The notes beneath the pieces are model-generated. The model was not told the origin of the DNA, searched no databases, and saw only the letters and a list, made by a program, of their open reading frames with translations. DNA of 64,000 bases, from the IMG/VR virus record IMGVR_UViG_3300021437_000013, positions 1 to 64,000 of that record. One strand, given 5' to 3'. The stretch is from a virus. A program made the translations under genes and the position numbers. Of this stretch, positions 12,148 to 41,428 are shown piece after piece. Numbering within the stretch: the stretch's first letter is position 1; every line of letters begins with the position of its first letter.

Positions 12148-12399
12148 CTATGCTCTCTTAACTAAGTAACTGTACTCTCTTCTGTACATTAAGCTACCAT
12201 CTGGTAATACTGTTTCAACTCCATCAGTTGATAAGATTGATGCTCTATCTTGTGGATTCTTTAAGCTGTTAGCATATCCATGGTCATTTACGAACATCTT
12301 TTGGCTTGAAGCTACATATTCATCCATCATTTGGTTAGCTCTGTCTAAAGTAACGATTAATACTTCTACTTTACGATTAGCCATGATTGAGTTTTTCAT
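12148..12399 (-). CDS. 83-residue unknown protein, first gene of the leftward block
   Basis: ATG at 12399 after AAGGAG. Contains a helical N-terminal half (VEVLIVTLDRANQMMDEYV) and a polar C-terminal half. It is the first gene behind the promoter at 12428-12455, so probably among the earliest products. Function unknown. Confidence 0.7.
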   Translation of the reverse strand: MKNSIMANRKVEVLIVTLDRANQMMDEYVASSQKMFVNDHGYANSLKNPQDRASILSTDGVETVLPDGSLMYRREYSYLVKRA

Positions 12400-12427
12400 A
12401 TAAGCTCCTTGGTTGTTTGTTACCTGT

Positions 12428-12455
12428 AGTCTACCATACCTAAACTATCTGTCAA
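12428..12455 (-). promoter_or_regulatory. Sigma-70-type promoter for the leftward block
   Basis: Minus strand: TTGACA (12450-12455), 16-bp spacer, TAGACT (12428-12433). Predicted start about 20 bases before the ATG at 12399. It is divergent from the structured RNA at 12481-12810. Confidence 0.68.
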
Positions 12456-12480
12456 TACTTAATTTACATTATTTTGATAT

Positions 12481-12810
12481 TCGGGAATAGGAAGGGCAAA
12501 GTGTTCTTAGTCTTCATGAACAGCTTAGTATGCAGGTTTGTGATGCCCGAGGTCAAACATAGAGCTTGTAAGGTATGCATTGCCTAAGATTTGGTTAGTG
12601 TTTACACACCATGAAGAACTTAGGCCAGAGAAAAAAGGGTAACAAGAACTGTTTGCATATTATCCTAACTCGCAACTACTATAATCTATCAGCTTCTTTT
12701 CCCACTTTGCCTATTTCCCTTTCAAGATTGTAAGCTGACAGATTTGCTACACTTAAGTAGCTATATTTTAGTTTATGTCCAAAATAGATAAATGACGTAG
12801 GATTGTAGAA
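12481..12810 (+). ncRNA. Structured RNA, copy 1 of a twin pair (pseudoknotted)
   Basis: No gene fits here, but the stretch aligns in layout with 15912-16245. Helices: GGCAAAGTG (12495-12503) with CACTTTGCC (12703-12711), extended by GGGAATA (12483-12489) with TATTTCCC (12712-12719); TCTTCATG (12511-12518) with CATGAAGA (12610-12617); and TCAGCTT (12689-12695) with AAGCTGA (12732-12738), which crosses the first helix and makes a pseudoknot. A 31-base box at 12773-12803 differs from copy 2 at three positions. In copy 2 each helix has different bases that still pair. Strand is inferred from the downstream plus-strand gene; ends are approximate. Family not recognised. Confidence 0.72.
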
Positions 12811-13395
12811 TATCATAAGATGCAACAAATGTAAAGGTATAATACACTTACAACACATTGTAGCTACATTTTACTTATTCTTTAGTAATTACATGAGGTT
12901 ACTATGATACATCTATGATACAAGCTATATTTAATATACTAATATTAACAGGTTTGTTAATTTAAGTAGATTCATTATTCTAATTGATGATTAGTTGATA
13001 CATCTTAAACCAATGGCACTTATTGCCATTATTTGCCAAACGATAGTATATCAATCTTACTATAGTTTAGTGTTTCAGACTAACTTTTTCTATGTTTTTA
13101 TAAAATACAAGTAAGTGATTCTTTAGTAAATACTAGTAGTTGCTATATGCTTTTATGTACACAATATATTTCATGTACATTAAACTGTTACAAACTGTTA
13201 CAAAATGTTACAAATTGTGACACTATTTAGCAGATTAATGCTGAAATTTGAATTAACATCGTAGTATTAATTATAGGACATAATTACCTTTTATGCTGAA
13301 AATACCATCTGTAGTGTTAATATTTTGATACTAAACCTAACTAATATCTTGTATTAATTATACTAATATGTTAGTATGATAAAATAGGAGGTTCT
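12811..13395. other. Very AT-rich non-coding stretch, candidate origin region
   Basis: No gene or late element seen. It holds a repeated ATGTACA pair (about 13155-13180), a four-unit 10-bp repeat (13182-13221) and many TACTAATAT-type words. It lies where transcription diverges between the leftward block and the rightward genes. The leader of the gene at 13396 ends in TAGGAGG. Confidence 0.4.
13182..13221. repeat. Four tandem 10-bp repeats (iteron-like)
   Basis: AAACTGTTAC twice (13182-13201), then AAAATGTTAC and AAATTGTGAC. Spacing is exactly 10 bp, close to one helical turn, so a bound protein would sit on one face of the DNA. Flanked by very AT-rich sequence, as in replication origins or operator arrays. 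Confidence 0.6.
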
Positions 13396-14001
13396 ATGGC
13401 TAAAAAACTAAACATAAAGCTTATACTGGCCGCACAAATGGCTAAAGGTATAAACCCAGAAGATGAAAAGATTAGGATTAAGCAGAAGGTTGAAAATGAG
13501 GAAGAGAGATTGCGACAACTTAGGTTTGAAAATCTTAAAAGAAGTATAACTTATCAAGCCGGGCTAATCGAACATAGAGATGATAGTCAAGACATAATCA
13601 ATACTATGGTTAAGGATAAGAGGAAGCTGTTTCTAAAAGAATATAAAGGATTCTCAATCCCTAATTCTTATATGTCATATTCTCAATGGAAAGTAGAACA
13701 CGCTACAATTAGCCATCCTATGTCCTATTTAAGAAACGTAAGATTACATAAAGGAATAGAGTATTTAGGTAATAAAGAGGAGATACTACAAGATATTAGA
13801 AGTAGAATAGATACTTACAATATGTATCATCCTACAGATAAGTTTAATAATCGGATATTTGATGATATAAGACATATACTAAAGAATCTTGCTGAGTATA
13901 TACCTGATATTATGAGTGATTCAGAACTTATATTTGAGTTTAAAGCAAGACACATCACTCCTAAGAATAGACACAACCCATTTATACCGCTTAACAACTA
14001 A
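13396..14001 (+). CDS. Unknown protein, 201 aa
   Basis: ATG after AGGAGG. Basic, helical N-terminus (KQKVENEEERLRQLRFENLKRS), then an aromatic-rich part (KGFSIPNSYMSYSQWK) and a basic C-terminus. High charge suggests nucleic-acid contact, but no motif is recognised. It is sandwiched between two structured RNA regions, and its last codons and stop (CTT AAC AAC TAA) are themselves a late promoter element. Confidence 0.8.
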   Translation: MAKKLNIKLILAAQMAKGINPEDEKIRIKQKVENEEERLRQLRFENLKRSITYQAGLIEHRDDSQDIINTMVKDKRKLFLKEYKGFSIPNSYMSYSQWKVEHATISHPMSYLRNVRLHKGIEYLGNKEEILQDIRSRIDTYNMYHPTDKFNNRIFDDIRHILKNLAEYIPDIMSDSELIFEFKARHITPKNRHNPFIPLNN

Positions 14002-14008
14002 ATGTGAA
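13991..14008 (+). promoter_or_regulatory. Late promoter element, upstream of the structured region
   Basis: TTAACAACTAAATGTGAA. It overlaps the stop of 13396-14001. No coding start follows for about 780 bases, so the transcript would begin with the structured non-coding region. Confidence 0.6.
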
Positions 14009-14740
14009 GGAATGATAGTAAGCCATAAAGATGAGGGGCGATAATACATCTCTTCTAAAGTTAATAGCTCGTAGGTCTGAGATAATGGAAACAAAGGGTA
14101 GGACTGAAATGAGTGTGTCCAGAGAGTAAGATGAATAAACTTACCACAGGCATTAAAGGAAGCAATAGCTTCACTGCTTATAACAACCAAGCTTAAGCAG
14201 AAGGATATAGAAAGTCTTATCCTTATTTAACTTTAGACGTTTCAACCTCGGTAAGTTGAATAGTTAATGGAGCATATATCTTACCCATTAACAATAAATA
14301 GATACTTCTTAGGAAGAACTATATCTAAAAGCGACACTGAGCAATACATTTACAATGTCTTAGGCAACTTGGTCATGAGACAAAAGGTTAAGTGAAAGTG
14401 TATGTGACTTAGCAGCTACATAACCAGTCCTCTCTTCTTACCTCTTAAGGTTATCTTAGTATAGCAACCTAACCAGTAGCATAACTGAGTAAAATCAAGG
14501 GGTTAGGGGTAGGGTAGGGGGTAAATAGGTAGCCTGTTGGGGACGTTTAACCGCTCATATTTACAAACTTAAAATTAAAATAGAAACATTACCAGAATAA
14601 CCCTGACTTGGTAAGTGGTTAAAATACATCGTATAAAGCTATTAGAGGCTTATAGAGGGGTTAGAATGGTAATGGTAGGGGGTATATAGGGGGAAACCCT
14701 TAATCCTCTTAAAATGCCTATTACAGCATTAGGATACTTA
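14002..14740 (+). ncRNA. Large structured non-coding region, candidate RNA
   Basis: About 740 bases without a gene. Strong local hairpins: GAAGC/GCTTC (14159-14163 with 14168-14172), AAGGATA/TATCCTT (14201-14207 with 14218-14224), TTCAAC/GTTGAA (14241-14246 with 14255-14260), GTTAATGG/CCATTAAC (14263-14270 with 14285-14292), TTCTT/AAGAA nested in TAGATA/TATCTA (14299-14327), and nested ATCCT/AGGAT plus AATGC/GCATT (14703-14735). A late promoter element begins it. Size and ornateness recall phage-associated large RNAs such as GOLLD and ROOL, but I cannot match it to either. Ends uncertain. Confidence 0.5.
14499..14521 (+). other. G-quadruplex motif with a competing hairpin
   Basis: Four G-runs (GGGG 14499-14502, GGGG 14506-14509, GGG 14512-14514, GGGGG 14517-14521) with loops of two to three bases fit the classical G4 pattern. 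CCTAACC at 14468-14474 can pair with GGTTAGG at 14501-14507, so the element could switch between two folds. A looser G-rich cluster follows at 14657-14693. Confidence 0.6.
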
Positions 14741-14761
14741 GAAACAACCTTGTTCTTGTTA

Positions 14762-14779
14762 GTAACAACTATCAGTAGA
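14762..14779 (+). promoter_or_regulatory. Late promoter-like element, weaker match
   Basis: GTAACAACTATCAGTAGA, then GG and an ATG at 14787. It keeps the AACAACTA core. Best candidate promoter for the gene at 14787. Confidence 0.45.
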
Positions 14780-14786
14780 GGTTGAT

Positions 14787-15461
14787 ATGATTGATTTAAA
14801 CATAATAGGTTCATGTGTGTATGCATTAATTGATGATAATAATAAAGAGGTTATTGTTATTGGTACCAGTAATGGATATAAGGGATTAGTAGAAGAGATG
14901 TATTGTATATCTACTAAAGTTAAATATGATGGGTTTACAGTTACTAACGTTGTAGCTTCACCATTACCAGAAGAATCCAGAATCAGATTACAAACAATAG
15001 ATAAGCTTATTACTGAATACACAAATAAACAGTATATAGTTAGAAACAGCACTAGAAAACGTAGTAGTATGACTTATAAGATTATCTGTAAAAGTATGAA
15101 ACTTGGTGGGATGATAACCAGACAGAACATCTTCATAGTTATAGAGAAGAGTATTAAGTATAATGGTAAAGTCCGTGGAGTATTTGAGTCTAACGAAGAG
15201 GCTAACAACTTCATTGACTACTTAAAGAGTATGAATGAGGATATGTTACGGCCACTATCTGCATGTAATGCACTTACTAAAGCTTGGACATTAGAAGAAG
15301 AAAGACAGAAATCAGAGTATTTAATACCCGGTAAGAAGACTGTGACAGTAAGTATGGATGGTCACGGGAAAGAGGCTAGAAGGATATCTTATCCTAGAGC
15401 TGTAATACTACATAACATTAAGCAGATGTTAGCCGGGTTACCTACAATGCCACTTAACTAA
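14787..15461 (+). CDS. Unknown protein, 224 aa
   Basis: ATG after AGAGG. N-terminal beta-rich half (IIGSCVYALIDDNNKEVIVIGTS, then VKYDGFTVTNVVASP) and a helical, charged C-terminal half (EEANNFIDYLKSMNEDML, RRISYPRAVILHNIKQML). No family recognised. It runs tail to tail with the minus-strand gene 15458-15835, overlapping by four bases. Being among structured RNAs, an RNA-related role is conceivable but unsupported. Confidence 0.78.
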   Translation: MIDLNIIGSCVYALIDDNNKEVIVIGTSNGYKGLVEEMYCISTKVKYDGFTVTNVVASPLPEESRIRLQTIDKLITEYTNKQYIVRNSTRKRSSMTYKIICKSMKLGGMITRQNIFIVIEKSIKYNGKVRGVFESNEEANNFIDYLKSMNEDMLRPLSACNALTKAWTLEEERQKSEYLIPGKKTVTVSMDGHGKEARRISYPRAVILHNIKQMLAGLPTMPLN

Positions 15462-15835
15462 TAATTATGCATATGTCGTAGTATTGCAACTTGATCTAAG
15501 AAGCTAATATTAAGCTTTTGAAGCTGTGTACGTTTAGCCTTAGGTACACTAGCCAACTCTAATTGTAACGTGTTTAAATCGAAATTAGGTGCCTTAGATA
15601 ACGTCTTAAGTAACACCTCTGCTGATATCTCTTTAAGATGCTTACGGTTGGCATACTTAACGTTAAATACACATTCTGGATTAAGGATATCTTTCTCATA
15701 CTCTATTTCTAACCCCATACCATCATATACACCAGTTAATACTAATTCTATCTTACTGTGACTAACTACATCAAATGATTCAGATACAATTAAGTAATGC
15801 TCAGTCATGTTGTGTTTGTATTTGTAATATTTCAT
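15458..15835 (-). CDS. Unknown protein, 125 aa, isolated minus-strand gene
   Basis: ATG at 15835 with AGGAG upstream and its own sigma-70-like promoter (15853-15880). N-terminal beta-rich segment (HYLIVSESFDVVSHSKIELVLTGVYDG), then a helical basic segment (PKAKRTQLQKLNISF). Its independent promoter suggests early expression apart from the main leftward block. Function unknown; a small regulator is a guess. Confidence 0.72.
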   Translation of the reverse strand: MKYYKYKHNMTEHYLIVSESFDVVSHSKIELVLTGVYDGMGLEIEYEKDILNPECVFNVKYANRKHLKEISAEVLLKTLSKAPNFDLNTLQLELASVPKAKRTQLQKLNISFLDQVAILRHMHNY

Positions 15836-15852
15836 ATTTACTCCTTACCTTC

Positions 15853-15880
15853 ACTATATCATAGCTACATATTAAGTCAA
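15853..15880 (-). promoter_or_regulatory. Sigma-70-type promoter for 15458-15835
   Basis: Minus strand: TTGACT (15875-15880), 16-bp spacer, TATAGT (15853-15858), about 18 bases before the ATG. Confidence 0.7.
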
Positions 15881-15911
15881 CAAGTATCTATAATAATACT
15901 AATATTCATTT

Positions 15912-16245
15912 TAGACAATAGGAGGGGCAAGGCATCTTTGTCCTAATAATAGCCCCTGGGGGAGGGTTATGCGCCGATAGACTTGCTTGGTAGTGTTGCT
16001 CAGGATTTGTTTAGTGCTATTAACACCATTAGGAACACAGAGCTGGAGACAAAAAGAAACAGAACCATTTACACTAATATCCAAGTTACGCTATCTCATG
16101 TCGGTGTATCATCTACTTTACTGTGCCTTGCCTTATCTCTTTTTGCAGCTTAGTAGTGAATTCCAGGTTATCTTTATACTGCTAACTCTCACAGTTGTCT
16201 TTTTAGGTTATGTCCAAAAAGGGTAAATGACGTAGGATGATAGAA
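15912..16245 (+). ncRNA. Structured RNA, copy 2 of a twin pair (pseudoknotted)
   Basis: Homologous in layout and length to 12481-12810. GGCAAGGCA (15926-15934) pairs with TGCCTTGCC (16124-16132); TCCTAAT (15941-15947) with ATTAGGA (16028-16034); and CTACT (16113-16117) with AGTAG (16152-16156), crossing the first helix. The shared word GATTTG-K-TTAGTG (16004-16016, copy 1 at 12588-12600) and the 31-base box at 16208-16238 keep their places. The bases in all three helices differ from copy 1 yet pair, which is covariation. It lies directly upstream of the terminase gene cluster. A packaging-RNA role like phi29 pRNA is imaginable but untested. Confidence 0.74.
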
Positions 16246-16307
16246 TAACACAGAAAGGTAGATAAATCAATAATTATTATATTATTTAGTTGACAAATGA
16301 ATAGAAA

Positions 16308-16325
16308 CTAACAACTACTACTAAA
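16308..16325 (+). promoter_or_regulatory. Late promoter-like element before the terminase cluster, weaker match
   Basis: CTAACAACTACTACTAAA, then GG. It keeps AACAACTA but the 3' half differs. A TTGACA at 16290-16295 has no good -10, so I favour the late element. Confidence 0.4.
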
Positions 16326-16335
16326 GGATTAAAAC

Positions 16336-16560
16336 ATGGACTTAAGAGAATGTAAAATATGTAATCAGGTTAAGCCAAGACTTACACTTGGATTATTCCC
16401 AAATGGCAGAGCGCCTAAGTATGCAGATGAACATGGTAAGCTTTGGAATGGACTTGTATGCCCATCGTGTACTGTAGATAGAGCTAAAGAAACTATGAAG
16501 ATTACAAGAAGCAATAGAAAGCTGGCCGCTAAGATTGAGAAAGATAATGAAATTAGATGA
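16336..16560 (+). CDS. Small zinc-finger protein
   Basis: 74 residues. CKIC (about 6-9) and CPSC (about 42-45) would bind one zinc; the C-terminal third is basic and helical (RAKETMKITRSNRKLAAKIEK). First gene of the rightward terminase operon. Such small fingers before terminase genes could be packaging or regulatory factors; function not recognised. Confidence 0.72.
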   Translation: MDLRECKICNQVKPRLTLGLFPNGRAPKYADEHGKLWNGLVCPSCTVDRAKETMKITRSNRKLAAKIEKDNEIR

Positions 16561-17119: not shown

Positions 17120-17506
17120 ATGGATATAGATAGTAGCTACATTGAAAAACAGAATGAAGTATTATTAGCACTTAATAATAAAATACTAAAATTAGAGATG
17201 GAGAAGAGGGCACTAGAACATAAGCTTACAGAGATGACTGCTAATGCTCCAACTATTAATAGTCTTGATATATTTGATATCACTGATGAGGAAACAGTAT
17301 GCCTTACTCAGATAGCTTTATTAAGAGGTCTTGCCTTACAAAGAGAACTGTCTACAGAAGAAACTAAGAGATTCGAGGTTTATCATAAAGCTATGAATAA
17401 CTTAAGAGGTAGAAAGAAAGAGGAAGAGAAAGTAGACCTTAAAGATATTGATAATGACAACCTACTACAAATATTAGATGGCACTATAGTTAAGAAGACC
17501 GAATGA
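17120..17506 (+). CDS. terS: Probable terminase small subunit
   Basis: 128 residues, AAGGAG before the ATG. A coiled coil spans about 8-40, followed by DITDEETVCLTQIALLRGLALQ and RELSTEETKRFEVYHKA, a pattern seen in phage small terminases (known to me by pattern). The stop overlaps the terminase large subunit start as ATGA, the usual pairing. The coiled coil and helical core fit an oligomeric DNA-recognition ring; I see no clear helix-turn-helix. Confidence 0.7.
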   Translation: MDIDSSYIEKQNEVLLALNNKILKLEMEKRALEHKLTEMTANAPTINSLDIFDITDEETVCLTQIALLRGLALQRELSTEETKRFEVYHKAMNNLRGRKKEEEKVDLKDIDNDNLLQILDGTIVKKTE

Positions 17507-20052
17507 GCAAACCAACAGCTAAACAATTAACCAGACAAGAGCTTATCCATGAAATGTGGAGAAGGGGAAACTTAGTATATAAGATGCATTCAGTACAAAG
17601 AGAGATGTACGAAACTTTAGAATCTGCAGCTCCCAATTCTGTATTAGTTTGGATGACGTCCAGGCAGCTCGGCAAATGCCTAGAAGAGAATACTTTGGTA
17701 GCTACTCCACAAGGTTCAGTAAAGATAAAAGATATACAAGAAGGAAGCATTGTATATGGGTATGATGAGAAAGGTAAGATTACTCCTACTGAGGTTATAA
17801 AGGTTCATAATCAAGGTAAAAAAGAAGTAGTGGATTTGATGCACAGAGGGAGAGTAATCGCTACGGCCACAGACGACCATAAATGGTTAGCTTGGGATAG
17901 CTACAAGAATAAAGAAGTAGAAATAACCGCCAAACAACTTACGGGATATCCTAGATATAAAATTAGAAGAGAGTATTTTGATTATGTTGGAGGTAGTATT
18001 CATGAACCGCACGCTTACACTCTCGGGGCTTTATTGGGTGACGGGTACGGAAAACATAATAAAAGTTCAATGACTCAATTATGTGTATCTTCAAGAGATG
18101 ATAAAATTCCCGAGGCTATTTCTAGAGAATTAGGGTGTTTTTACTGGAAAGCAAAAGGTAATAACTTCTCATATATACTAAGTAACACTTTTAAGCCTAT
18201 GACTAAAGGTAAAACTTATGATTTAATGACTATAAACTACTATAAAGAGTGGTGTTCTGGTAAAAAAGCACATGAGAAATTTTGTGATTATGAAACAATA
18301 AGAACTTGGTCTAGAGAATCTCAAGTTAGATTTATTGCCGGATTAATTGATACTGATGGTAGTATACATCTCTCAGGAAGAGATAAGACGGAGTTACGAT
18401 TTTCTTTAGGTATGCAGGCAGAGACTGTTATACAATGTGTAAGTAAGTTAATGTTAGATTTATGGCAAGCGGAGACTTGTTATTTATTGGATAATAGACC
18501 TAAATATAAAAATGGCCCAGTACATACTATATATTTAAATAATAACTTTTTAGTAAAAAGAATACTAAAAGAACTGTCACCTCATATAGTTACGGAACAT
18601 AAAAAATATAAAGAAGAGTATGATAATTTTCCAGAATATAATCATATAAAAGACTATGTTGGTGTAATTGCTGGAAAAAGGTATGAAGTAAATACTTATG
18701 ACTTAAGTATTGATAATAAAACCCACCTATATTGTTTAGCTAATGGATTAATAACCCACAATAGTACAATGCTATGCTTAATCGCAATAATGGCTTGTAT
18801 AAAGAAGCCTAATAGTATTGTAAAGATACTAACTGATACTAAGGTTCATGCTCAAATGATTCTTGAACCTAAATTCATAGAGGTTCTAGAAGACTGTCCA
18901 GAAGAACTAAAACCTACTTATAATGCTTCTCGATATATGTACCACTTCCCTAATGGGAGTCAAATACAAATGGCTGGTACAGATGCAGGCTCCGCCGAGA
19001 GGTTGAGGGGTGGTAAGTCTGAGCTGGTTTTGGTTGATGAAGCTGCGTTTTGTTCAAAGCTTGAGTATAATATCCTATCAGTATTAGTACCAACTACCAC
19101 CCATACTGGCGGTAAGATTGTATTAGCATCATCAGCACCAGAAGACCCAGACCATGATTTTATTAAGTTTATGGAAAGGGCAGAAATAGAAGGAACTTTA
19201 GTAAGTAAAACCGTATATGATAACCCTCTACTTACTACAGAGAAAATTAAGACTATTATAAAGGGGTATGCGGGGGGTATTGATAATCCTAACTTTAGAC
19301 GAGAGTATTTAAATATCATTGAGAAGAATGAGAAGACAACCGTATTCCCAGAGGTTAATGAAAATACAATAAAAGAGATTACTTCTAATATTCCTCCCAT
19401 GCCTGCACATTATGATTGTTTTGTTGGTATGGACTTAGGATTCAAAGACTTAACGGGCATTGTATTTGCTCATTATGACTTTAGGAATAAGCTATTAGTA
19501 TTTGATAAAGAGATAGTTAAGAAAGGGCCTGAGGTTAATCTTAAAGAGTTACCAGATGAAATATTAAAGGTTGAGAAAGAACTCTGGAGTAATAAGCTTA
19601 CTAATGAAGTTAGAATCCCTACTAAACGAGTATCTGACATTAACCCACTTGTTACTCAAGAGATTGCCAGAAATAGTAATTATCAAGTCATGTTCTACAA
19701 TGCAGACAAGGCACAGCGTATGACTGCTTTAAATGCCTTTAGAGCCGCTTTTCAATCGGGGCAGATAAAGATTAACCCCCAAGGTTGTCCAGTGCTTATA
19801 CGGCATTTAAACAATGCTAAATGGAAGTCTTTGGATGACAAGAGCGACTTTGCTAGAAGTTCAGATGATTCACATTATGACTTAGCAATGGCTGCCTTAT
19901 ACTTATTCAGGGCCGTTAATTTTGATAAGAATCCTTATCCGATTGGTAGTCGTGACCCTAACACTAATCACTATGCTGATTGGCATAGTAAGAATCAATC
20001 CTCAAACGTAAACAAATACAAAGCTCTATTAGGAATCAAAAAAAAGAAGTAG
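17503..20052 (+). CDS. terL: Terminase large subunit interrupted by an intein
   Basis: ATP-driven packaging motor and headful nuclease. 849 residues as encoded: an extein of about 487 residues and a 362-residue intein (59-420). The Walker A motif SRQLGK-ST is split exactly after the Lys; the intein must splice out to restore it. Walker B is LVLVDEAAF. The RNase H-like nuclease has VGMDLGFKD and the late acidic HYDLAMAALYLF. The extein length is normal for phage TerL. The start overlaps terS (ATGA). The gene is followed by its own late promoter unit at 20075. Confidence 0.95.
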   Translation: MSKPTAKQLTRQELIHEMWRRGNLVYKMHSVQREMYETLESAAPNSVLVWMTSRQLGKCLEENTLVATPQGSVKIKDIQEGSIVYGYDEKGKITPTEVIKVHNQGKKEVVDLMHRGRVIATATDDHKWLAWDSYKNKEVEITAKQLTGYPRYKIRREYFDYVGGSIHEPHAYTLGALLGDGYGKHNKSSMTQLCVSSRDDKIPEAISRELGCFYWKAKGNNFSYILSNTFKPMTKGKTYDLMTINYYKEWCSGKKAHEKFCDYETIRTWSRESQVRFIAGLIDTDGSIHLSGRDKTELRFSLGMQAETVIQCVSKLMLDLWQAETCYLLDNRPKYKNGPVHTIYLNNNFLVKRILKELSPHIVTEHKKYKEEYDNFPEYNHIKDYVGVIAGKRYEVNTYDLSIDNKTHLYCLANGLITHNSTMLCLIAIMACIKKPNSIVKILTDTKVHAQMILEPKFIEVLEDCPEELKPTYNASRYMYHFPNGSQIQMAGTDAGSAERLRGGKSELVLVDEAAFCSKLEYNILSVLVPTTTHTGGKIVLASSAPEDPDHDFIKFMERAEIEGTLVSKTVYDNPLLTTEKIKTIIKGYAGGIDNPNFRREYLNIIEKNEKTTVFPEVNENTIKEITSNIPPMPAHYDCFVGMDLGFKDLTGIVFAHYDFRNKLLVFDKEIVKKGPEVNLKELPDEILKVEKELWSNKLTNEVRIPTKRVSDINPLVTQEIARNSNYQVMFYNADKAQRMTALNAFRAAFQSGQIKINPQGCPVLIRHLNNAKWKSLDDKSDFARSSDDSHYDLAMAALYLFRAVNFDKNPYPIGSRDPNTNHYADWHSKNQSSNVNKYKALLGIKKKK
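17677..18762 (+). mobile_element. Intein with LAGLIDADG homing endonuclease in terL
   Basis: Cys59 of the precursor is the first intein residue (CLEENTLVATPQGSVKI, block A). TDDH at 123-126 is block B. LGALLGDGYG (174-183) and FIAGLIDTDG (277-286) are the two LAGLIDADG helices. The end LYCLANGLITHN carries blocks F and G with the terminal His-Asn, and the +1 residue is Ser. All splicing residues are present, so it should be active. The endonuclease would cut inteinless terL alleles at the Walker A codons. Confidence 0.95.
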
Positions 20053-23742: not shown

Positions 23743-24242
23743 TGTCAACATTACCAAGTAAATTAGACCAAGCACAAGTCTTACAACATGTATTCGATGA
23801 GGATTTAAAGTCTCTTCGAGTCGCTTCATCTGCAACAATAGTTCCGGGTTCGTTTGACGTGGCATTAAGTGCCGCAGATGATACTATTGCCATAGCGGAT
23901 GCCACAAGCGGAGCTAAAGCAGGTGTAACAAGCTCTAATGAACTCAAAGTGCTTGATATTAATTCAGTATTACCTACCACACCAACTATCTACAATGCAG
24001 TAAACTTAACGGCCAATACAGAATATAGCTATAATTACCCAGCAAACACTAAAAAGGTTTATATTAAAGCTCGTAAAGGCATCTTAAAGGTAGCTTATGT
24101 TGTTAATGGTACTATCTCAACCAATAATATCTTAGTTGCTAAAGGTGCAAGTTATTGTATTGAGGGAATTAAGACCTCTGCTACGGTATATTTCTCATCT
24201 TCTTTTACTACTGACACGGTAGAAATCGAAACTTGGGCTTAA
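23742..24242 (+). CDS. Structural-type unknown protein, 166 aa
   Basis: Coupled to the preceding gene by TAATG. Short helical start, then beta-rich Thr/Ala/Val sequence (TKKVYIKARKGILKVAYVVNG) ending IETWA, typical of small head-decoration or fibre-linked proteins. No named family. Confidence 0.7.
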   Translation: MSTLPSKLDQAQVLQHVFDEDLKSLRVASSATIVPGSFDVALSAADDTIAIADATSGAKAGVTSSNELKVLDINSVLPTTPTIYNAVNLTANTEYSYNYPANTKKVYIKARKGILKVAYVVNGTISTNNILVAKGASYCIEGIKTSATVYFSSSFTTDTVEIETWA

Positions 24243-24251
24243 AATCCACCC

Positions 24252-24269
24252 TTAACAACTAATAGAATG
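24252..24269 (+). promoter_or_regulatory. Late promoter element containing a start codon
   Basis: TTAACAACTAATAGAATG, an exact match to the consensus. The final ATG (24267-24269) is the only reasonable start of the next gene, so the mRNA would be nearly leaderless. Confidence 0.72.
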
Positions 24270-24655: not shown

Positions 24656-27600
24656 ATGTCAGATTTAAAATTAGTTAAGCTATTAAATCCAGCGGTAGTT
24701 GTAAACTCTAACGTTAAACCAACCGGTGCTTATTCTGCCATAGTAAATTATGGTATTGGTGATTCAGTAAGTTATACTAACGGTAATTCTTATATTTGTA
24801 TTTCCCCAATCTCTGGGGTAGTACCAACAAACACAACCTATTGGCAGTTATTAGCTCAACAAGGGGCTACGGGTGCAACTGGTGCTACGGGAGCCACAGG
24901 CGCAACTGGTTCTACTGGCGCAACTGGTTCAGCTGCTACTATCGCAGTAGGTACAACAACTACAGGTTCACCGGGTACTTCTGCAAGTGTAACTAACTCA
25001 GGTTCTTCAAGTGCCGCTACTTTCAATTTTACCATCCCTAGGGGCGATGTTGGGGCAACGGGAGCAGCCGGAGCGGCCGCCACAGTAGCAGTGGGAACAA
25101 CAACCACGGGAGCAGCTGGAACAAGTGCATCAGTTACCAATTCTGGTTCATCTTCCGCAGCTACATTTAACTTTACAATCCCAAGAGGTGACACTGGAGC
25201 AACGGGAGCTACTGGAGCAACAGGAGCAACAGGAACCGCAGCAACAATTGCAGTAGGAACAGTAACAACTGGTGCAGCAGGTTCAAGTGCTAGTATAACT
25301 AACTCAGGTTCATCATCAGCGGCAACATTTAACTTTACGATTCCTCGTGGTGACCCCGGTTCAAACACTCCAACGGATGCAGTATTTGCCGTTTTAGATG
25401 TTACTGACAATACAAAACAAGTAAAATTTGATGTAGCTGGAACTACAGGAACAACAACTACCATCTTAAGTTCACAAACTACAAATAAAACTATCACTTT
25501 ACCTGATGCCACTGACACATTAGTCGGTAAAGCTACAACAGATACATTAACCAATAAAACTTTAACTTCACCAGTTATAAACTCTCCAACTGGAATAACT
25601 AAATCCGATGTTGGTCTTAGTAATGTTGACAATACTTCTGACGCTACAAAGAACAGTGCTACGGCCACACTCACTAATAAGACTTTAACCTCTCCAATCA
25701 TAAGTACAATCAGTAACACGGGCACTTTAACGCTCCCAACAAGTACGGATACGCTCGTCGGACGTGCAACTACTGATACACTGACAAACAAAACCCTTAC
25801 TTCTCCTGTAATTAATTCACCTACGGGTATTACAAAATCCGACGTAGGACTTTCAAATGTAGACAACACCAGTGACGCAACAAAGAACGCTACAACTGCT
25901 ACGTTTACAAACAAATCTCTATCCGATTCTACTACGGCAATCGTTGATGTTACTGATGCAACAAAACAAATCAAGTTTGATGCAGCAGGTACTACCGCAA
26001 CAGCTACAACTATCCTTTCGTCTCAAACAGTTAATAGAACTATTACCCTCCCAGATGCTACAGATACACTTGTGGGTAAAGCAACTACGGATACATTAAC
26101 TAACAAGACTCTAACAAGTCCAGTAATCAATACTCCAACTGGTATTACTAAGTCAGACGTGGGATTATCTAACGTCGACAACACGTCAGATGCGACAAAG
26201 AATGCAGCAACTGCAACATTAACTAACAAAACACTTGATACAGCAACAAACACAATCACTGGATTAGCCAATACAAACATTAGTACATCTGCCGCTATAG
26301 CTCACTCTAAAATGGCAGCATTAACCGCTTCAAAAGTGGCAGTTACTGACGCATCAGGCTTTATTACTACAGCTACACCATCAACAACTGAAATAAATTA
26401 TGTAGCAGGTGTTACAAGTGCAATCCAAACACAAATAGATACTAAGGCTCCAATAGCTTCACCAACATTCACAGGTGTTCCAGCAGCTCCAACGGCTACC
26501 GCAGGAACAAATACAACACAAATTGCAACAACGGCATTTGTTACTTCCGCAGTTGCAGGGGCTACAGCTGGAGTTTCATCCTTTAATACAAGAACGGGCG
26601 CAGTAACATCGGCTAACGGTGATTACACGGCTACACAAATCACAAATACCCCATCAGGTAACATAACATCAACTACGGTTCAAGCGGCAATCAATGAAGC
26701 TCAGACGCACATTGATACTCACGTTGCAGGTACAGCAGTACATGGGGCAACTGGTGCGGTAATGGGTACAACTAATACCCAAACTGTAACAAATAAGACA
26801 TTCTTAGATACAACTACTATCATTGCAGATGTAACAGATAATACAAAACAGATTAAATTTGATGCTGCTGGTACTACTGCAACAAGTACAACAATATTAT
26901 CATCTCAAACTACAAATAAAACTTTAACTTTACCAGATATTACGGATACTTTAGTTACAAAAACAAGTACGGATACATTAACTAATAAGACGTTGACCAC
27001 TCCCATCATTTCTTCTATCTCAAACACAGGTACATTGACTTTACCAACGTCAACTGATACATTAATAGGTAGGGCAACTACTGATATACTTACTAATAAA
27101 TCATTAAGTGATACAACTACCGCAATAGTGGATGTTACTGATAACACTAAGCAGATTAAATTTGATGCCGCAGGTACAACGGCAACATCAACTACAATCA
27201 CGGGCTCTCAAACGGCTAATAGAGTGCTTACATTACCAGATGCAACTGATACATTGGTTGGTAAAGCTACAACGGATACATTAACAAACAAAACCCTTAC
27301 TTCTCCAGTTATTTCAACTATAGTTAATACGGGAACTTTAACTTTACCTACAATTACGGATACTTTAGTAGGTAGAACCACTACAGACACGTTAACTAAT
27401 AAAACATTAACTTCACCAGTCATTAGTACAATAGTAAATACTGGTACTTTGACACTTCCTACAGCTACAACTACACTAGTTGGTACTACAACTACAGATA
27501 CACTAACAAATAAAACACTTACGTCACCAGTAATATCGACAATTGTAAATACTGGTACGCTTACATTACCTACGTCAACAGATACATTAGTAGGTCGTGC

Positions 27601-28888
27601 TACAACTGATACATTAACGAATAAAACTTTAACATCTCCCGTTATTGGAACAATAGTAAACACTGGTACATTAACTTTACCAACGTCAACCGATACACTT
27701 GTTGGCCGTGCAACTACTGATACACTTACTAACAAGTCTTTATCTGATACTACTACTTCTATAGTAAACGTAACAGATGCTACTAAGAAAATCTTATTCA
27801 GTTCGGTTGGTACTACTGCAACTACAACAACAATTACAGCTTCACAAACAGCAAACAGAGTTATAACGCTCCCAGATGCCACTACAACGCTTGATGGTAT
27901 CAATAACGTAGCTACTCTTACTAACAAAACTCTTACTGCTCCCGTTATAGCTACAATTGTAAACACAGGTACTTTGACATTACCAACTATTACAGATACA
28001 TTAGTCGGAAGAACAACAACCGACACACTTACAAACAAAACTTTAACATCACCAGTAATAAGTACCATTGTCAATACGGGAACTTTAACCCTCCCAACAT
28101 CTACTGATACGTTAATTGGTAGAGCTACAACGGATACATTAACAAATAAGTCATTTTCAGATACAACTACTGCGGTAGTAGATGTAACTGATCCAACTAA
28201 GAAGATATTATTCGATGCTGCAGGTACTACGGGAACCACTACAACGCTACAAGCGGCTCAAACTGCTAACAGAGTCGTAACCTACCCAGATGCAACGGAT
28301 ACAATCGTAGCAAGAGCCACTACAGATACGTTAACTAATAAAACTATTTCAGGATTGTCAAATACAATCAATAATATTTCATTAACTACATCCGTTACAG
28401 GTGCATTACCTATAGCGAATGGTGGTACTGGACAAACTACAGCAGCAAATGCCTTTTCTGCACTATCTCCAACTACAAACCCGGGGGATATGATTTATGA
28501 AGGTGCCGTTGGTGTTGGTGTTATAGCATTACCAATAGGTACTACTGGACAAGTCTTAACTGTAGCAGGTGGTTTTCCAACTTGGGCAACTGCAACTGGT
28601 GGCGGCGGTACTGGCACAGCGGTATACAAAGTAATCCAATCTGTAGATTTTGGAGCTAATGACAATGATTATGTAACGGCCACAATATCCAATGCTAATG
28701 TATTATCCACTCATACCTTTTCGTTTAGTGTTGAACGTGATCCTTTAGACGGGGATTATGAGGACGCAATACTTGAAACTATCCACGTTTCAAAGGGAGC
28801 AGTAGTAAATAATACAAGTTTTGATATCCATGTTCATGCACCAGAGATGACTTGGGGTAGATATAATATTCATTGCACGTTTCTATAA
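24656..28888 (+). CDS. Giant repetitive tail-fibre protein
   Basis: 1410 residues. After about 60 residues come three collagen-like Gly-x-y blocks (GATGATGATG) separated by a repeated unit with SGSSSAATFNFTIPRGD. Most of the rest is built from repeats: TTDTLTNKTLTSPVI, NTGTLTLPT and VDVTDATKQIKFDAAGTT. A unique C-terminal domain ends AVYKVIQSVDF to the stop. The composition (Thr, Asn, Ser; almost no Cys or Trp) fits a trimeric fibre that binds the host surface. Repeats are shared with the 36434-40873 protein. ATG after AAGGA. Confidence 0.82.
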   Translation: MSDLKLVKLLNPAVVVNSNVKPTGAYSAIVNYGIGDSVSYTNGNSYICISPISGVVPTNTTYWQLLAQQGATGATGATGATGATGSTGATGSAATIAVGTTTTGSPGTSASVTNSGSSSAATFNFTIPRGDVGATGAAGAAATVAVGTTTTGAAGTSASVTNSGSSSAATFNFTIPRGDTGATGATGATGATGTAATIAVGTVTTGAAGSSASITNSGSSSAATFNFTIPRGDPGSNTPTDAVFAVLDVTDNTKQVKFDVAGTTGTTTTILSSQTTNKTITLPDATDTLVGKATTDTLTNKTLTSPVINSPTGITKSDVGLSNVDNTSDATKNSATATLTNKTLTSPIISTISNTGTLTLPTSTDTLVGRATTDTLTNKTLTSPVINSPTGITKSDVGLSNVDNTSDATKNATTATFTNKSLSDSTTAIVDVTDATKQIKFDAAGTTATATTILSSQTVNRTITLPDATDTLVGKATTDTLTNKTLTSPVINTPTGITKSDVGLSNVDNTSDATKNAATATLTNKTLDTATNTITGLANTNISTSAAIAHSKMAALTASKVAVTDASGFITTATPSTTEINYVAGVTSAIQTQIDTKAPIASPTFTGVPAAPTATAGTNTTQIATTAFVTSAVAGATAGVSSFNTRTGAVTSANGDYTATQITNTPSGNITSTTVQAAINEAQTHIDTHVAGTAVHGATGAVMGTTNTQTVTNKTFLDTTTIIADVTDNTKQIKFDAAGTTATSTTILSSQTTNKTLTLPDITDTLVTKTSTDTLTNKTLTTPIISSISNTGTLTLPTSTDTLIGRATTDILTNKSLSDTTTAIVDVTDNTKQIKFDAAGTTATSTTITGSQTANRVLTLPDATDTLVGKATTDTLTNKTLTSPVISTIVNTGTLTLPTITDTLVGRTTTDTLTNKTLTSPVISTIVNTGTLTLPTATTTLVGTTTTDTLTNKTLTSPVISTIVNTGTLTLPTSTDTLVGRATTDTLTNKTLTSPVIGTIVNTGTLTLPTSTDTLVGRATTDTLTNKSLSDTTTSIVNVTDATKKILFSSVGTTATTTTITASQTANRVITLPDATTTLDGINNVATLTNKTLTAPVIATIVNTGTLTLPTITDTLVGRTTTDTLTNKTLTSPVISTIVNTGTLTLPTSTDTLIGRATTDTLTNKSFSDTTTAVVDVTDPTKKILFDAAGTTGTTTTLQAAQTANRVVTYPDATDTIVARATTDTLTNKTISGLSNTINNISLTTSVTGALPIANGGTGQTTAANAFSALSPTTNPGDMIYEGAVGVGVIALPIGTTGQVLTVAGGFPTWATATGGGGTGTAVYKVIQSVDFGANDNDYVTATISNANVLSTHTFSFSVERDPLDGDYEDAILETIHVSKGAVVNNTSFDIHVHAPEMTWGRYNIHCTFL
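25500..28360 (+). repeat. Fibre repeats, identical in protein but varied in DNA
   Basis: Over ten units encode TDTLTNKTL with the NTGTLTLPT strand between. The amino acids stay the same while the codons change from unit to unit: NTGTLTLPT is written with a different codon combination nearly every time. The related modules are also found at about 36590-38330. Confidence 0.75.
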
Positions 28889-34435: not shown

Positions 34436-35866
34436 ATGGGAAAGAATAAATCAATGATATGGTACACAATTGAAATGCTCGACGAGGTTGCAAAGTCTCG
34501 TGGTGGCCGTTGCTTATCTACTGAATATACTACATGCTTCTTTAAGTACCTGTGGCAAGATCATTTAGGTAATCAGTGGAGAGCTTCATGGACCGCAGTT
34601 AGACGTGGCACATGGTCACCTTTCTTAGTTAAAGAAAAACAGCGTAACTTCAATCTTAAATATACTATAGAAGATTTGCATAAATATGCAGAGTCAAAGG
34701 GTGGTAAATGTTTATCTACAGTTTATACTAAGACTAAAGACTATTACGAATGGGTAGATAGTAAAGGTAGATATTTTAAAAAAACGTGGGAAGAAATAAT
34801 CACAGCTAAACAATGGTCACCACATGAGAAAAGAGAAACCTTAAGTAAACTAAAGACTATTTACAAAGAAGAATTTTTTATCTCTTTCCTATCTAAGACT
34901 GATATACCTTTTGCATTTCTGGGTATAGAAGAGGGCTCTTATCAGAGGTCAAGACGTGGCATATATAAAAATACTATTACTGGTAAAATTCACAAAATCA
35001 CCCCCTCTAGATTACTTAATTTCGGACTTCCTTCCAAATTCAACAAGATGCAACATGAAATATACAAGTTCATCTGCTCTCTCGGCCTTGAAGCTCATGA
35101 GGATAATCGAACTATAATAGCACCCTTTGAACTTGATATAGTAATCCCCTCTCTTAATGTAGCTATAGAACTTGACGGCCTTAGATGGCATAACAAAGAG
35201 AAAGACTACCATCTAAACAAGACAATTAATGCTAAAAAAGCAGGTTATGACTTAATCCACATATACGACTTAGAATGGAAACACCATAAAAAGCAAGTAA
35301 AATCATTCCTTACTACTAAACTTGGTAAAAGTAAGCGTAAAGTATATGCCAGAAAATGTGAGATTAGGACAGTTCCAAAAGACATAACTAAAGATTTCCT
35401 TAATTCCTATCACATTCAAGGTAACGTAGGTCACATAGAAGCATTTGGACTATACTATCAAGACGAATTATTATCCCTAATTACTATTGGTAAGCATCAC
35501 AGAGACTCTACTAAACTCGTTTTAAGCCGTTTTGTTGGTAAAGAAGGTGTATCTGTACTTGGTGGACTTTCAAAGCTCTCTAAAGCCGCTTTTAAGCGTT
35601 ATGGGAGCTTTATAACATGGGTAGATAGACGAATATCTAACGGTGAGAACTGGATTAAAGCAGGTTGGACGGTAACTAATGTTGCACGACCAGATTATTT
35701 CTACTTTGATTCAAATACCCGTAAAATCATAAGTAAACAATCCAGAAAAAAGAGCTTAGTAAACACTCCCGAGGGCATGACAGAAGTCGAACATGCTAAA
35801 ATTGATGGTTTAAGACGAATATATGACTGCGGTAAGATTACTTTAGAGTATAAACTACCCTCTTAA
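34436..35866 (+). CDS. Homing-type endonuclease with Vsr-like nuclease core
   Basis: 476 residues. Two tandem N-terminal repeats of about 50 residues (GGRCLSTEYTT and GGKCLSTVYTK, each ending W-SP) look like the DNA-binding repeats found in phage homing enzymes. The middle has ELDIVIP and VAIELDGLRWH (about 224-250), resembling a Vsr/PD-(D/E)xK core. The C-terminal domain (HIEAFGLYYQDELLSLITIG, then RIYDCGKITLEY) recurs in phage nucleases of this sort. It sits alone between the capsid terminator and the next late promoter, with its own sigma-70 promoter and no Shine-Dalgarno: a mobile cassette. Confidence 0.82.
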   Translation: MGKNKSMIWYTIEMLDEVAKSRGGRCLSTEYTTCFFKYLWQDHLGNQWRASWTAVRRGTWSPFLVKEKQRNFNLKYTIEDLHKYAESKGGKCLSTVYTKTKDYYEWVDSKGRYFKKTWEEIITAKQWSPHEKRETLSKLKTIYKEEFFISFLSKTDIPFAFLGIEEGSYQRSRRGIYKNTITGKIHKITPSRLLNFGLPSKFNKMQHEIYKFICSLGLEAHEDNRTIIAPFELDIVIPSLNVAIELDGLRWHNKEKDYHLNKTINAKKAGYDLIHIYDLEWKHHKKQVKSFLTTKLGKSKRKVYARKCEIRTVPKDITKDFLNSYHIQGNVGHIEAFGLYYQDELLSLITIGKHHRDSTKLVLSRFVGKEGVSVLGGLSKLSKAAFKRYGSFITWVDRRISNGENWIKAGWTVTNVARPDYFYFDSNTRKIISKQSRKKSLVNTPEGMTEVEHAKIDGLRRIYDCGKITLEYKLPS

Positions 35867-35880
35867 CAACTAATATAATG
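35863..35880 (+). promoter_or_regulatory. Late promoter element upstream of 35907
   Basis: TTAACAACTAATATAATG. Overlaps the stop of the homing-type nuclease; the ATG inside it is not followed by a long reading frame. Restarts late transcription after the cassette. Confidence 0.68.
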
Positions 35881-36433: not shown

Positions 36434-39400
36434 ATGTTAAACATTAAAAAATTCTTTGTTGGTATCGCAGTTAAAGCAAAGTCAATATTAGCATCTGATA
36501 CTAAAGGTGAATTAGAAGTATTAGACAGTGATGGTAGCTTAAATTACCATAACGGTTCAAGTCGTGCTAAAGTACTAACTGATTCTCACACGGCCACAAT
36601 AACAAACAAAACAATCAATGCACCTGATAACACTATCACTAATATTGCTAATGCTAATATTAACGCTTCGGCGGCAATTGATGCTTCTAAAATCGCAAAT
36701 GGTGTTGTCTCTAATGCCGAGTTTCAATACCTTGATGGTGTTACCTCTGCAATACAAACACAAATAAACACTAAAGAGAATAGCGCAAATAAAGGGGTAG
36801 CCAATGGATATGCACCTCTTGACTCAACTGCTAAAATATCCTCTACTTACCTCCCATCTTATGTTGATGATGTTTTAGAATATGCCAATCTTGCATCGTT
36901 CCCCGTAACTGGTGAAACAGGTAAGATTTATGTTGCTTTAAACAACAATAAAACTTATAGATGGAGCGGTTCAGCTTATATTGAAGTATCCCCATCAGAA
37001 GTAAACTCTGTAAATGGTTATACTGGCGTTGTAGTATTAACTAAGTCTGATGTTGGACTAAGTAACGTAGATAATACATCTGATGCGACAAAGAACGCTG
37101 CAACTGCGACATTAACTAATAAAACTATTAATGCCCCAGACAATACAATTACTAACATTGCAAATACTAACATATCTGCAACTGCTAATATTGATGCCTC
37201 TAAGATTGGTACTGGTATCGTATCTAATACAGAATTTAACTACTTAGATGGTGTTACAAGTGCGATTCAAACTCAATTAAATGCTACAGCTTCAAGTTCA
37301 GCTTTATCAGCTCATACGGGAGCCTCTACGGGTGTTCATGGTGTAACTGGTGCGGTAGTTGGTACTACAGATACACAAACACTAACAAATAAAACAATTG
37401 ATGTATTAAGTAATACAGTTTCAAACATTGCAAACGCTAATATTAGTGCATCTGCTGCAATTGTTGATACTAAACTTGCTACAATATCTACAGCAGGTAA
37501 AGTAAATAACTCAGCTACTACGGCAACAAACTTAAATACAGCATCAGCAATCGTTGCTCGTGATGCTTCTGGTAACTTCACAGCAGGAACAATTACAGCT
37601 AACTTAAACGGTAACGCTACAACTGCCACATCAGCAACATCTGCTACTACTGCTGGAACAGTAACAACAAATGCAAACCTTACTGGCCCTATCACTTCAA
37701 TTGGTAACACTACATCGGTAGCATCTCAAACTGGTACAGGTTCAACTTTTGTAATGAATACTTCACCAACATTAGTTACCCCGAATCTTGGAACTCCATC
37801 AGCTTTAGTTGGTACTAATATCACAGGTACAGCGGCAAGTTTAACAGCAGGTACAGTTACTACTAATGCTAATTTAACTGGCCCTATTACATCAGTAGGT
37901 AATGCAACCTCTATAGCTTCACAAACTGGTACGGGCACTACATTTGTAATGTCAAATAGTCCGACAATAACTACACCAGTAATATCTTCTATCACTAATA
38001 CCGGAACTTTAACACTTCCAACAACAACTACAACTTTAGTAGGTAGAGTAACTACAGATACATTAACAAACAAATCTTTATCAGATAGTACAACTGCGAT
38101 AGTTGATGTTACCGATGCCACTAAACAAATTAAATTTGATGCGGCCGGAACAACTGCTACAGCTACAACTATTACAAGTTCACAAACTGCTAATAGAACT
38201 ATTACTTTACCAGATGCCACTACTACTTTAGATGGTATTGATAATACAGCCACACTTTCTAATAAAACTATTTCAGGATTGTCAAACACAATCAACAACA
38301 TATCACTTACTACTGCGGTTACTGGAACTCTTCCAATAGCCAACGGTGGTACAAATGCAACTTCACAATCAGCACCAGTAAACTCGATAAGTCCGTTAGT
38401 ATATTTTGATGGTACTAAAATGACTACTGATGCTACACCTGCACACTTGGGGTATAATGCTACTACTGATACAGTTTATACAAGCTCGGTTTCATTATCA
38501 GCAGCATCCACTAACTCTTTACAGATGACAAATACCCAAACTGGTTCATCAAGTGCTGGTGCTGGTATCTCTGGCTTTTCTGACCCCGGAGCGGCAATGG
38601 CTTCTGGTAACAGATTAGGATTCATGACTTTTGGTGGTGCTAAAGATGCGGCACACACTACAGCAAATACTACGGCCATAACTGGTTTTGCTACAGAAGC
38701 TTGGAGCAGTACGGCTACAGGTTCAAAGATTCAACTTGAAACAACTCCAAATACAACTACTACAAGAACAGTAGCAATGACTATCGACCAATCTGGTAAT
38801 GTTGGTATTGGTTCTGCTATTACTTCACCTTCTAACAAACTTCAAGTTGCAGGTACAATTGAATCTACAACTGGTGGATTTAAATTCCCAGATGGTACTA
38901 CACAAACTACAGCAGGCGGCGGCGGTACAGGTTCATTAAACACTATATTCCAATTAAAAGCTGATGAAAGTATTGGTACTTGGTCATCAGGTAACAATGC
39001 TACTTTCCTAGGTGGTGGTACTTTATCAGGTACTTTCTCAATAAATAATACAACTCCGTTACAAGGTGCTAACAGTTACAATTATGTAACATCTGGTGTT
39101 GGTTCTGCTAACGATTATATTGTATCCGCTAACCAAGCGGTTGATATAAGATTCAGAGGACAACAAGCATACTTTACTTTCCCATATAGCTTTTCTGGTA
39201 ACTCTACAGATATGAAGATTGTGGTATATGATGCCACTAACTCAGCTATCATTTCATCTACTACCGATTATGTTACTCCTACTATAGCACTTGGCGGTTC
39301 TGGTACTACTATGAATACCGCAGTAGTTGGGGTTATCATCCCTGCTACTTGTGCAAACATAAGAGTAGGATTTCAATTCATGACTGCAGGTGGTGTTACA

Positions 39401-41383: not shown

Positions 41384-41410
41384 GATGATGTTTAAGGCTA
41401 GGATGGCCTC

Positions 41411-41428
41411 TTAACAACTAAGAGGATG
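41411..41428 (+). promoter_or_regulatory. Late promoter element upstream of the tail module
   Basis: TTAACAACTAAGAGGATG, then AGGG and the ATG at 41437. In a 53-base intergenic gap. Confidence 0.68.

Follow-up and report, generated by a model that had tools for sequence, protein, structure and literature searches.

The 64,000-nucleotide stretch of viral DNA analysed here (positions 1 to 64,000 of IMG/VR record IMGVR_UViG_3300021437_000013, which has 77,824 bases; referred to as the window) carries two copies of one non-coding element of about 340 bases, both on the plus strand. Copy 1 (RNA 1) spans 12475-12815 and copy 2 (RNA 2) spans 15901-16250, upstream of the terminase operon. The two are a genuine paralogous pair, homologous over their whole length even when a strongly conserved box near the 3' end is left out. 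With the box removed (285 and 289 bases), global alignment of the copies scored 177.5 compared with 92.4 ± 8.3 for dinucleotide shuffles (0 of 1000 shuffles, z about 10), and none of 836 genomic control windows reached the score of the pair. Identity was about 70% in the aligned columns outside the 3'-most 50. An initial annotation, made from the sequence alone, had recognized two related non-coding stretches at 12481-12810 and 15912-16245; they were located there, with the homologous units slightly longer. Its statement that most of the remaining sequence differs was too strong in view of the 70% identity, and the shared 13-base word that it described is present as AATAGGA[A/G]GGGCAA, with one mismatch in 14. 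Downstream, homology stopped sharply at 12815 and 16250; upstream, it continued weakly into a divergent promoter region. Indels of 1 and 2 bases were numerous and scattered through the alignment, so that no reading frame is conserved, and a protein-coding reading of the copies was rejected.

All six helix arms named in the initial annotation were found where it had placed them in both copies. Helix A is formed in copy 1 by GGCAAAGTG (12495-12503) and CACTTTGCC (12703-12711), with full arms at 12494-12503 and 12703-12712, and in copy 2 by GGCAAGGCA (15926-15934) and TGCCTTGCC (16124-16132). For helix B the corresponding segments are CTTCATG (12512-12518) and CATGAAG (12610-12616) in copy 1, within arms 12510-12518 and 12610-12619 that include a bulged A at 12618, and TCCTAAT (15941-15947) and ATTAGGA (16028-16034) in copy 2, within arms 15940-15947 and 16028-16036 with a bulged A at 16035. 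Helix C would pair TCAGCTT (12689-12695) with AAGCTGA (12732-12738) in copy 1, and CTACT (16113-16117) with AGTAG (16152-16156) in copy 2, where the arms extend to 16109-16117 (UCA, a bulged U and CUACU) and 16152-16159 (AGUAG-UGA). Since the arms follow each other in the order A, B, B', C, A', C', helix C crosses helix A in both copies, and the proposed pseudoknot layout is topologically valid.

In a hand-anchored alignment, helix A kept 10 of 10 pairs with three double changes, helix B, whose bulged A is conserved, kept 8 of 9 pairs with two double changes, and helix C kept 6 of 7 pairs with a single double change. When pairing partners were permuted within base classes, the result for helix A was never matched in 20,000 trials, and the values for B and C were 0.004 and 0.04, respectively; these values gain from the anchored alignment and from the selection of the helices. 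In an unselected test, among all 17 helices of at least 7 pairs in copy 1, three were kept with compensation compared with 0.68 expected (p 0.025), and the total number of double changes gave p 0.057. Consensus folding of the pair with RNAalifold reached -29.9 compared with -18.6 ± 3.8 for column shuffles, a value reached by 1 in 200, and single-sequence folding predicted helix A in each copy. Thus, the description of these changes as covariation seen directly was reasonable in the case of A and B and thinly supported in the case of C, given that only two sequences are compared and the unselected p is about 0.03. Helices A and B are probably real and the two copies probably keep the same fold, and C may form a pseudoknot in solution.

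A further helix, P0, could close the molecule. Its putative 5' arm in copy 1 (12475-12482) pairs with 12808-12815, and in copy 2 the five inner pairs are left (TATTC 15903-15907 with GAATA 16243-16247), so that 6 of 8 pairs are kept with zero compensatory changes and no support from covariation. The 31-base box lies at 12773-12803 in copy 1 and at 16208-16238 in copy 2. As reported in the initial annotation, 28 of its 31 bases are identical, and it occurs exactly twice in the complete 77,824-base record. The box could fold into a UAUGUC/GACGUA hairpin (12774-12779 with 12794-12799 in copy 1; 16209-16214 with 16229-16234 in copy 2). Its near-invariance leaves no covariation to read, and the conserved sequence could equally serve as a site on the DNA or as a hairpin in the RNA. 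Both P0 and the box hairpin are compatible with the data. The wobble pairs G12494-U12712 and U12776-G12797 are possible only with the plus strand as RNA, which places the RNA on that strand.

No third homologue was found in any collection searched. Rfam, with its models of ROOL, GOLLD, group I and II introns, riboswitches and small ribozymes, gave no matches in the window at the gathering threshold, and a permissive search of 12400-16400 returned only weak matches, all of them outside the copies; the suggestion that the pair belongs to no known RNA family thus stood at every threshold tried. Both copies, and the box alone, gave nothing or chance matches only in blastn searches of 50,697 phage records. 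Scans of IMG/VR with two box patterns and one internal pattern revealed no homologue, the four matches of the internal pattern being on contigs without the window's phage proteins and looking like chance, and the box pattern revealed none in GTDB genomes. Profile and covariance searches of about 115 loci of related phages did not detect the RNA either. On the basis of these negatives the pair is an orphan.

The copies lie in a divergent zone ahead of the terminase operon, as leftward genes start at 12399 and rightward structural genes lie beyond 13396. The distance between the beginning of each copy and the start codon of the neighbouring divergent minus-strand gene is about 70-80 bases, which would place either copy at the head of a rightward transcript. 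Upstream of copy 1, the region 12400-12474 contains a minus-strand sigma-70-like promoter detected by the promoter scan (TTGACA from 12455, TAGACT to 12428); upstream of copy 2, the region 15836-15900 contains a minus-strand promoter, TTGACT-N16-TATAGT, seen in the scan and in the sequence. These promoters align between the two upstream regions, whose homology is weak (p 0.02). A plus-strand TATAAT is situated at 15889-15894, about 8 bases ahead of P0 and the putative 5' end of copy 2. Copy 1 is followed by an open reading frame (ORF) of 201 amino acids (13396-14001, plus strand), for which no relatives were found. Copy 2 is flanked by a divergent 125-amino-acid ORF (15458-15835, minus strand) and, on its right, by a 74-amino-acid gene (16336-16560, plus strand) and the gene of the terminase large subunit (TerL), in line with its annotated position before the terminase operon.

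We tentatively favour the view, with less than even confidence, that the copies act in cis as leaders of the two rightward transcription units, in the manner of the put pair of phage HK022. Both copies share one strand and precede rightward genes, and the plus-strand-only wobble pairs agree with that orientation. They share full-length homology in which the pairing of A and B is kept and the consensus fold exceeds 199 of 200 column shuffles. The weakly shared divergent promoter region upstream and the sharp end of homology downstream suggest that each copy forms the 5' part of a transcript running to the right. The putL and putR RNAs set a precedent for a single phage with two similar leaders that act in cis (PMC9378689), and in relatives the zone upstream of the 74-amino-acid gene contains another conserved RNA. 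In the proposed mechanism, copy 1 would lead the unit of the 201- and 224-amino-acid genes and copy 2 the 74-amino-acid gene and the terminase operon. Long-range helix A would enclose arm B, pseudoknot C would cross A, and the near-invariant box would stand at the end. Folding of the pseudoknotted body would accompany the departure of the polymerase from the promoter. Whether transcription or translation of the downstream genes then continues would depend on that body or on the box, through attenuation or through antitermination of the kind known from the twin put RNAs of HK022. The duplication, the non-coding nature of the copies, the conserved pairing in A and B, and their position and orientation are established from the sequence; transcription, its start sites, the pseudoknot in solution and this entire regulatory step are what we infer.

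Several observations weigh against a role as cis-acting leaders. The end of copy 1 is separated from the next ORF by 580 bases, and the sole terminator-like site in the promoter and terminator scan lies inside copy 1, with none after either copy. The same scan scored no convincing plus-strand promoter. Neither copy was more stable than its shuffles (z 0.04 and 0.49), the length of about 340 nucleotides far exceeds the approximately 70 nucleotides of put, and the missing third homologue and the modest unselected covariation count here as well.

A somewhat unlikely alternative is that the phage has a non-coding RNA gene in two copies, each giving a separate structured RNA that acts in trans. Such an RNA would end at the closing helix past the box, and its target would be a protein of the host or the phage, or other RNAs. 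The sharp end of homology at 12815 and 16250, where P0 could close the molecule, would suit such a gene, as would the stretch lacking a plus-strand gene after copy 1. Large stand-alone phage RNAs are known from ROOL and GOLLD, which likewise are structured, have no assigned function and, in ROOL, contain multiple predicted pseudoknots (PMC12286853). They are much longer, however (659 nucleotides in a ROOL example, more than 800 in many GOLLD RNAs), and often occur near tRNA islands (PMC12286853), whereas the pair has no Rfam match and ARAGORN detected no tRNA or tmRNA (transfer-messenger RNA) in the window; a tmRNA identity was rejected on the same result. The lack of compensatory change in P0, the lack of a terminator-like site after either copy and the location of copy 2 directly before a gene speak against a separate RNA gene.

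Alternatively, though this is less likely still, the box may work as DNA. Its inverted repeat, TATGTC-N14-GACGTA, has a -10-like TAGAAT a few bases further on, and the two would serve as operator or activator-dependent promoter for the downstream genes at both places, with the rest of the element hitch-hiking or forming a lesser upstream RNA. The conservation of the box far above the rest, the dyad, whose half-sites stand roughly two turns of the helix apart, and the presence of TAGAAT in both copies fit this idea. The compensatory changes in A and B and the conserved blocks 5' of the box would be left unexplained, and a site found nowhere else in the genome would serve two promoters only.

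We strongly doubt that the pair is a duplicated spacer whose RNA has no function, with compensatory changes produced by chance and by picking the best-looking helices. The unselected tests, at p 0.03 to 0.1 only, the ordinary fold energies and the anchoring of the alignment on the helices leave room for such an explanation; the 10 of 10 pairs and three double changes of helix A, unmatched in 20,000 permutations, the consensus folding at 1 in 200 and the independent prediction of helix A in both copies go against it. Descent from a mobile RNA element, such as a group I-like intron pair tied to the GIY-YIG-like protein encoded between the copies, is highly improbable: a gene with an I-TevI-like fold is indeed flanked by both copies, and the order A-B-B'-C-A'-C' resembles group I P3-P4..P6-P7-P3'-P7', but Rfam gave no group I match even at E 10, no gene is interrupted, and the GIY-YIG-like gene is also kept by relatives without the RNA. 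A group I intron as such was likewise rejected, as no catalytic core matched up to E 10 and the copies are intergenic, next to divergent gene starts, without exons.

Returning to the cis-acting leaders, the comparison with HK022 has clear bounds. The put RNAs act in cis on elongating polymerase and consist of about 70 nucleotides with two stem-loops (PMC9378689). They suppress termination and need no dedicated protein factor for it. The pair resembles them in that one genome has two sequence-similar RNA elements, here next to divergent promoter regions and near the putative start of two transcription units. It differs in its length, long-range helices, possible pseudoknot and location of both copies on one strand, and by length and fold it is not a put RNA.

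Another known phage RNA, the pRNA of phi29, is a shorter RNA of small podoviruses that works with gp16. The likeness is limited to a phage non-coding RNA and, for copy 2, a location upstream of terminase genes; here no Rfam match and no gp16-type motor gene were seen, and the TerL is an ordinary one.

Between the copies, the non-coding region 14002-14786 (plus strand), the leader of a 224-amino-acid gene, was more stable than its shuffles (z -3.83, 20 shuffles), as expected from the third structured region noted in the initial annotation. It contains a G-quadruplex-like tract, GGGGTTAGGGGTAGGGTAGGGGG, at 14499-14521 and a further G run at 14678-14693. Plus-strand runs of 5-12 G were present at most 300 bases upstream of the 224-amino-acid gene or its homologue in 13 of 19 genomes, against a background of 0.24 per kb. 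The gene itself (14787-15461, plus strand) belongs to a divergent family that is conserved in relatives, matches the GIY-YIG profile with E 6e-7 and combines an I-TevI-like fold topology with a second domain. As a fold search with the protein gave nothing below E 0.001 and listed I-TevI at low significance, the assignment rests on the profile match and the topology. The window's copy has poorly preserved GIY and YIG motifs, so that the protein may be a binding protein and not a nuclease.

The only sequenced relative detected by tblastn with TerL was a Silvanigrella phage record, with a capsid protein 30% identical. Aligning the major capsid protein with that of this record gathered 62 IMG/VR loci, and a TerL alignment added 80 more. 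The family consists of dozens of environmental contigs, the longest of 70-95 kb and with no close cultured member, and their TerL proteins are 39-54% identical to that of the window. Among the rightward genes of these relatives, the conserved 224-amino-acid gene comes first, and the 74-amino-acid gene is kept ahead of TerL (tblastn, 26 upstream loci and 50 further loci).

A different non-coding element, about 250-390 bases long, is conserved between these two homologues, in the zone of copy 2, in at least eight relatives (L085:3311-3624, L129:6566-6879, L138:4516-4819, L127:292-594, L134:4035-4325, L132:706-1095, L139:784-1047 and L145:780-1062). It starts with GGTGTAG.TGTATGGGTATGG and ends with GTTATAGTTGTTAAAT, and its conservation in L085 and L086 exceeds that of the adjoining coding sequence. 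It had no Rfam match where searched and was not found in the window. When intragenomic RNA twins were sought in the relatives, only L093 and L185 stood out and neither held up: the L185 twin is a pair of coding paralogues and that of L093 was unconvincing.

The non-coding divergent zone of one relative (G011, L083:8709-8763, minus strand) contains a canonical type III hammerhead ribozyme motif (RF00008, 36.1 bits, E 1.6e-5, under the gathering score of 48.5). Stem-CUGAUGA motifs on the same strand occur in L085, L086, L090, L091 and L092, without a clear GAAA and stem II, several of them shortly upstream of a minus-strand start codon. No hammerhead core was found in the window's own non-coding zone.

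The window's TerL gene (17503-20052, plus strand; PHROG 36964 and relatives) encodes 849 amino acids and is interrupted by an intein-like segment, with matches to helicase, endonuclease and other phage families over residues 58-420; the 839-amino-acid TerL frame of relative L088 (G029) may also carry one. Further to the right, a CTTAACAACTAA..ATG-like motif is repeated in three intergenic copies near gene starts (24240-24269, 35851-35880 and 41399-41428), resembling a repeated leader motif. The segments 24656-28888 and 36434-40873 encode two large proteins that are tail-fibre-like judging by their repeats, with numerous internal units such as TATDTLTNKTL, some at 111-base spacing.

Altogether, the two copies are a real, orphan, paralogous pair of structured RNAs; this is moderately surprising, and the pair is not yet a demonstrated new class. 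The wider proposal, which we regard as unlikely at present, is that they represent a new class of large phage RNAs with a pseudoknot, present in duplicate to serve two units, in a lineage whose divergent zone would repeatedly recruit unrelated structured RNAs (this pair, the family of about 300 nucleotides in relatives and the hammerheads on the opposite strand) for shared control ahead of the terminase operon. To our knowledge, few precedents exist for the control of packaging-gene operons by large leader RNAs. RNA paralogues within one genome give a rare chance to watch compensatory change preserve structure inside a single genome. Since the phage family keeps a different conserved RNA before the same pre-terminase gene, the zone ahead of this gene is a tractable place to search for RNA regulators in phages.

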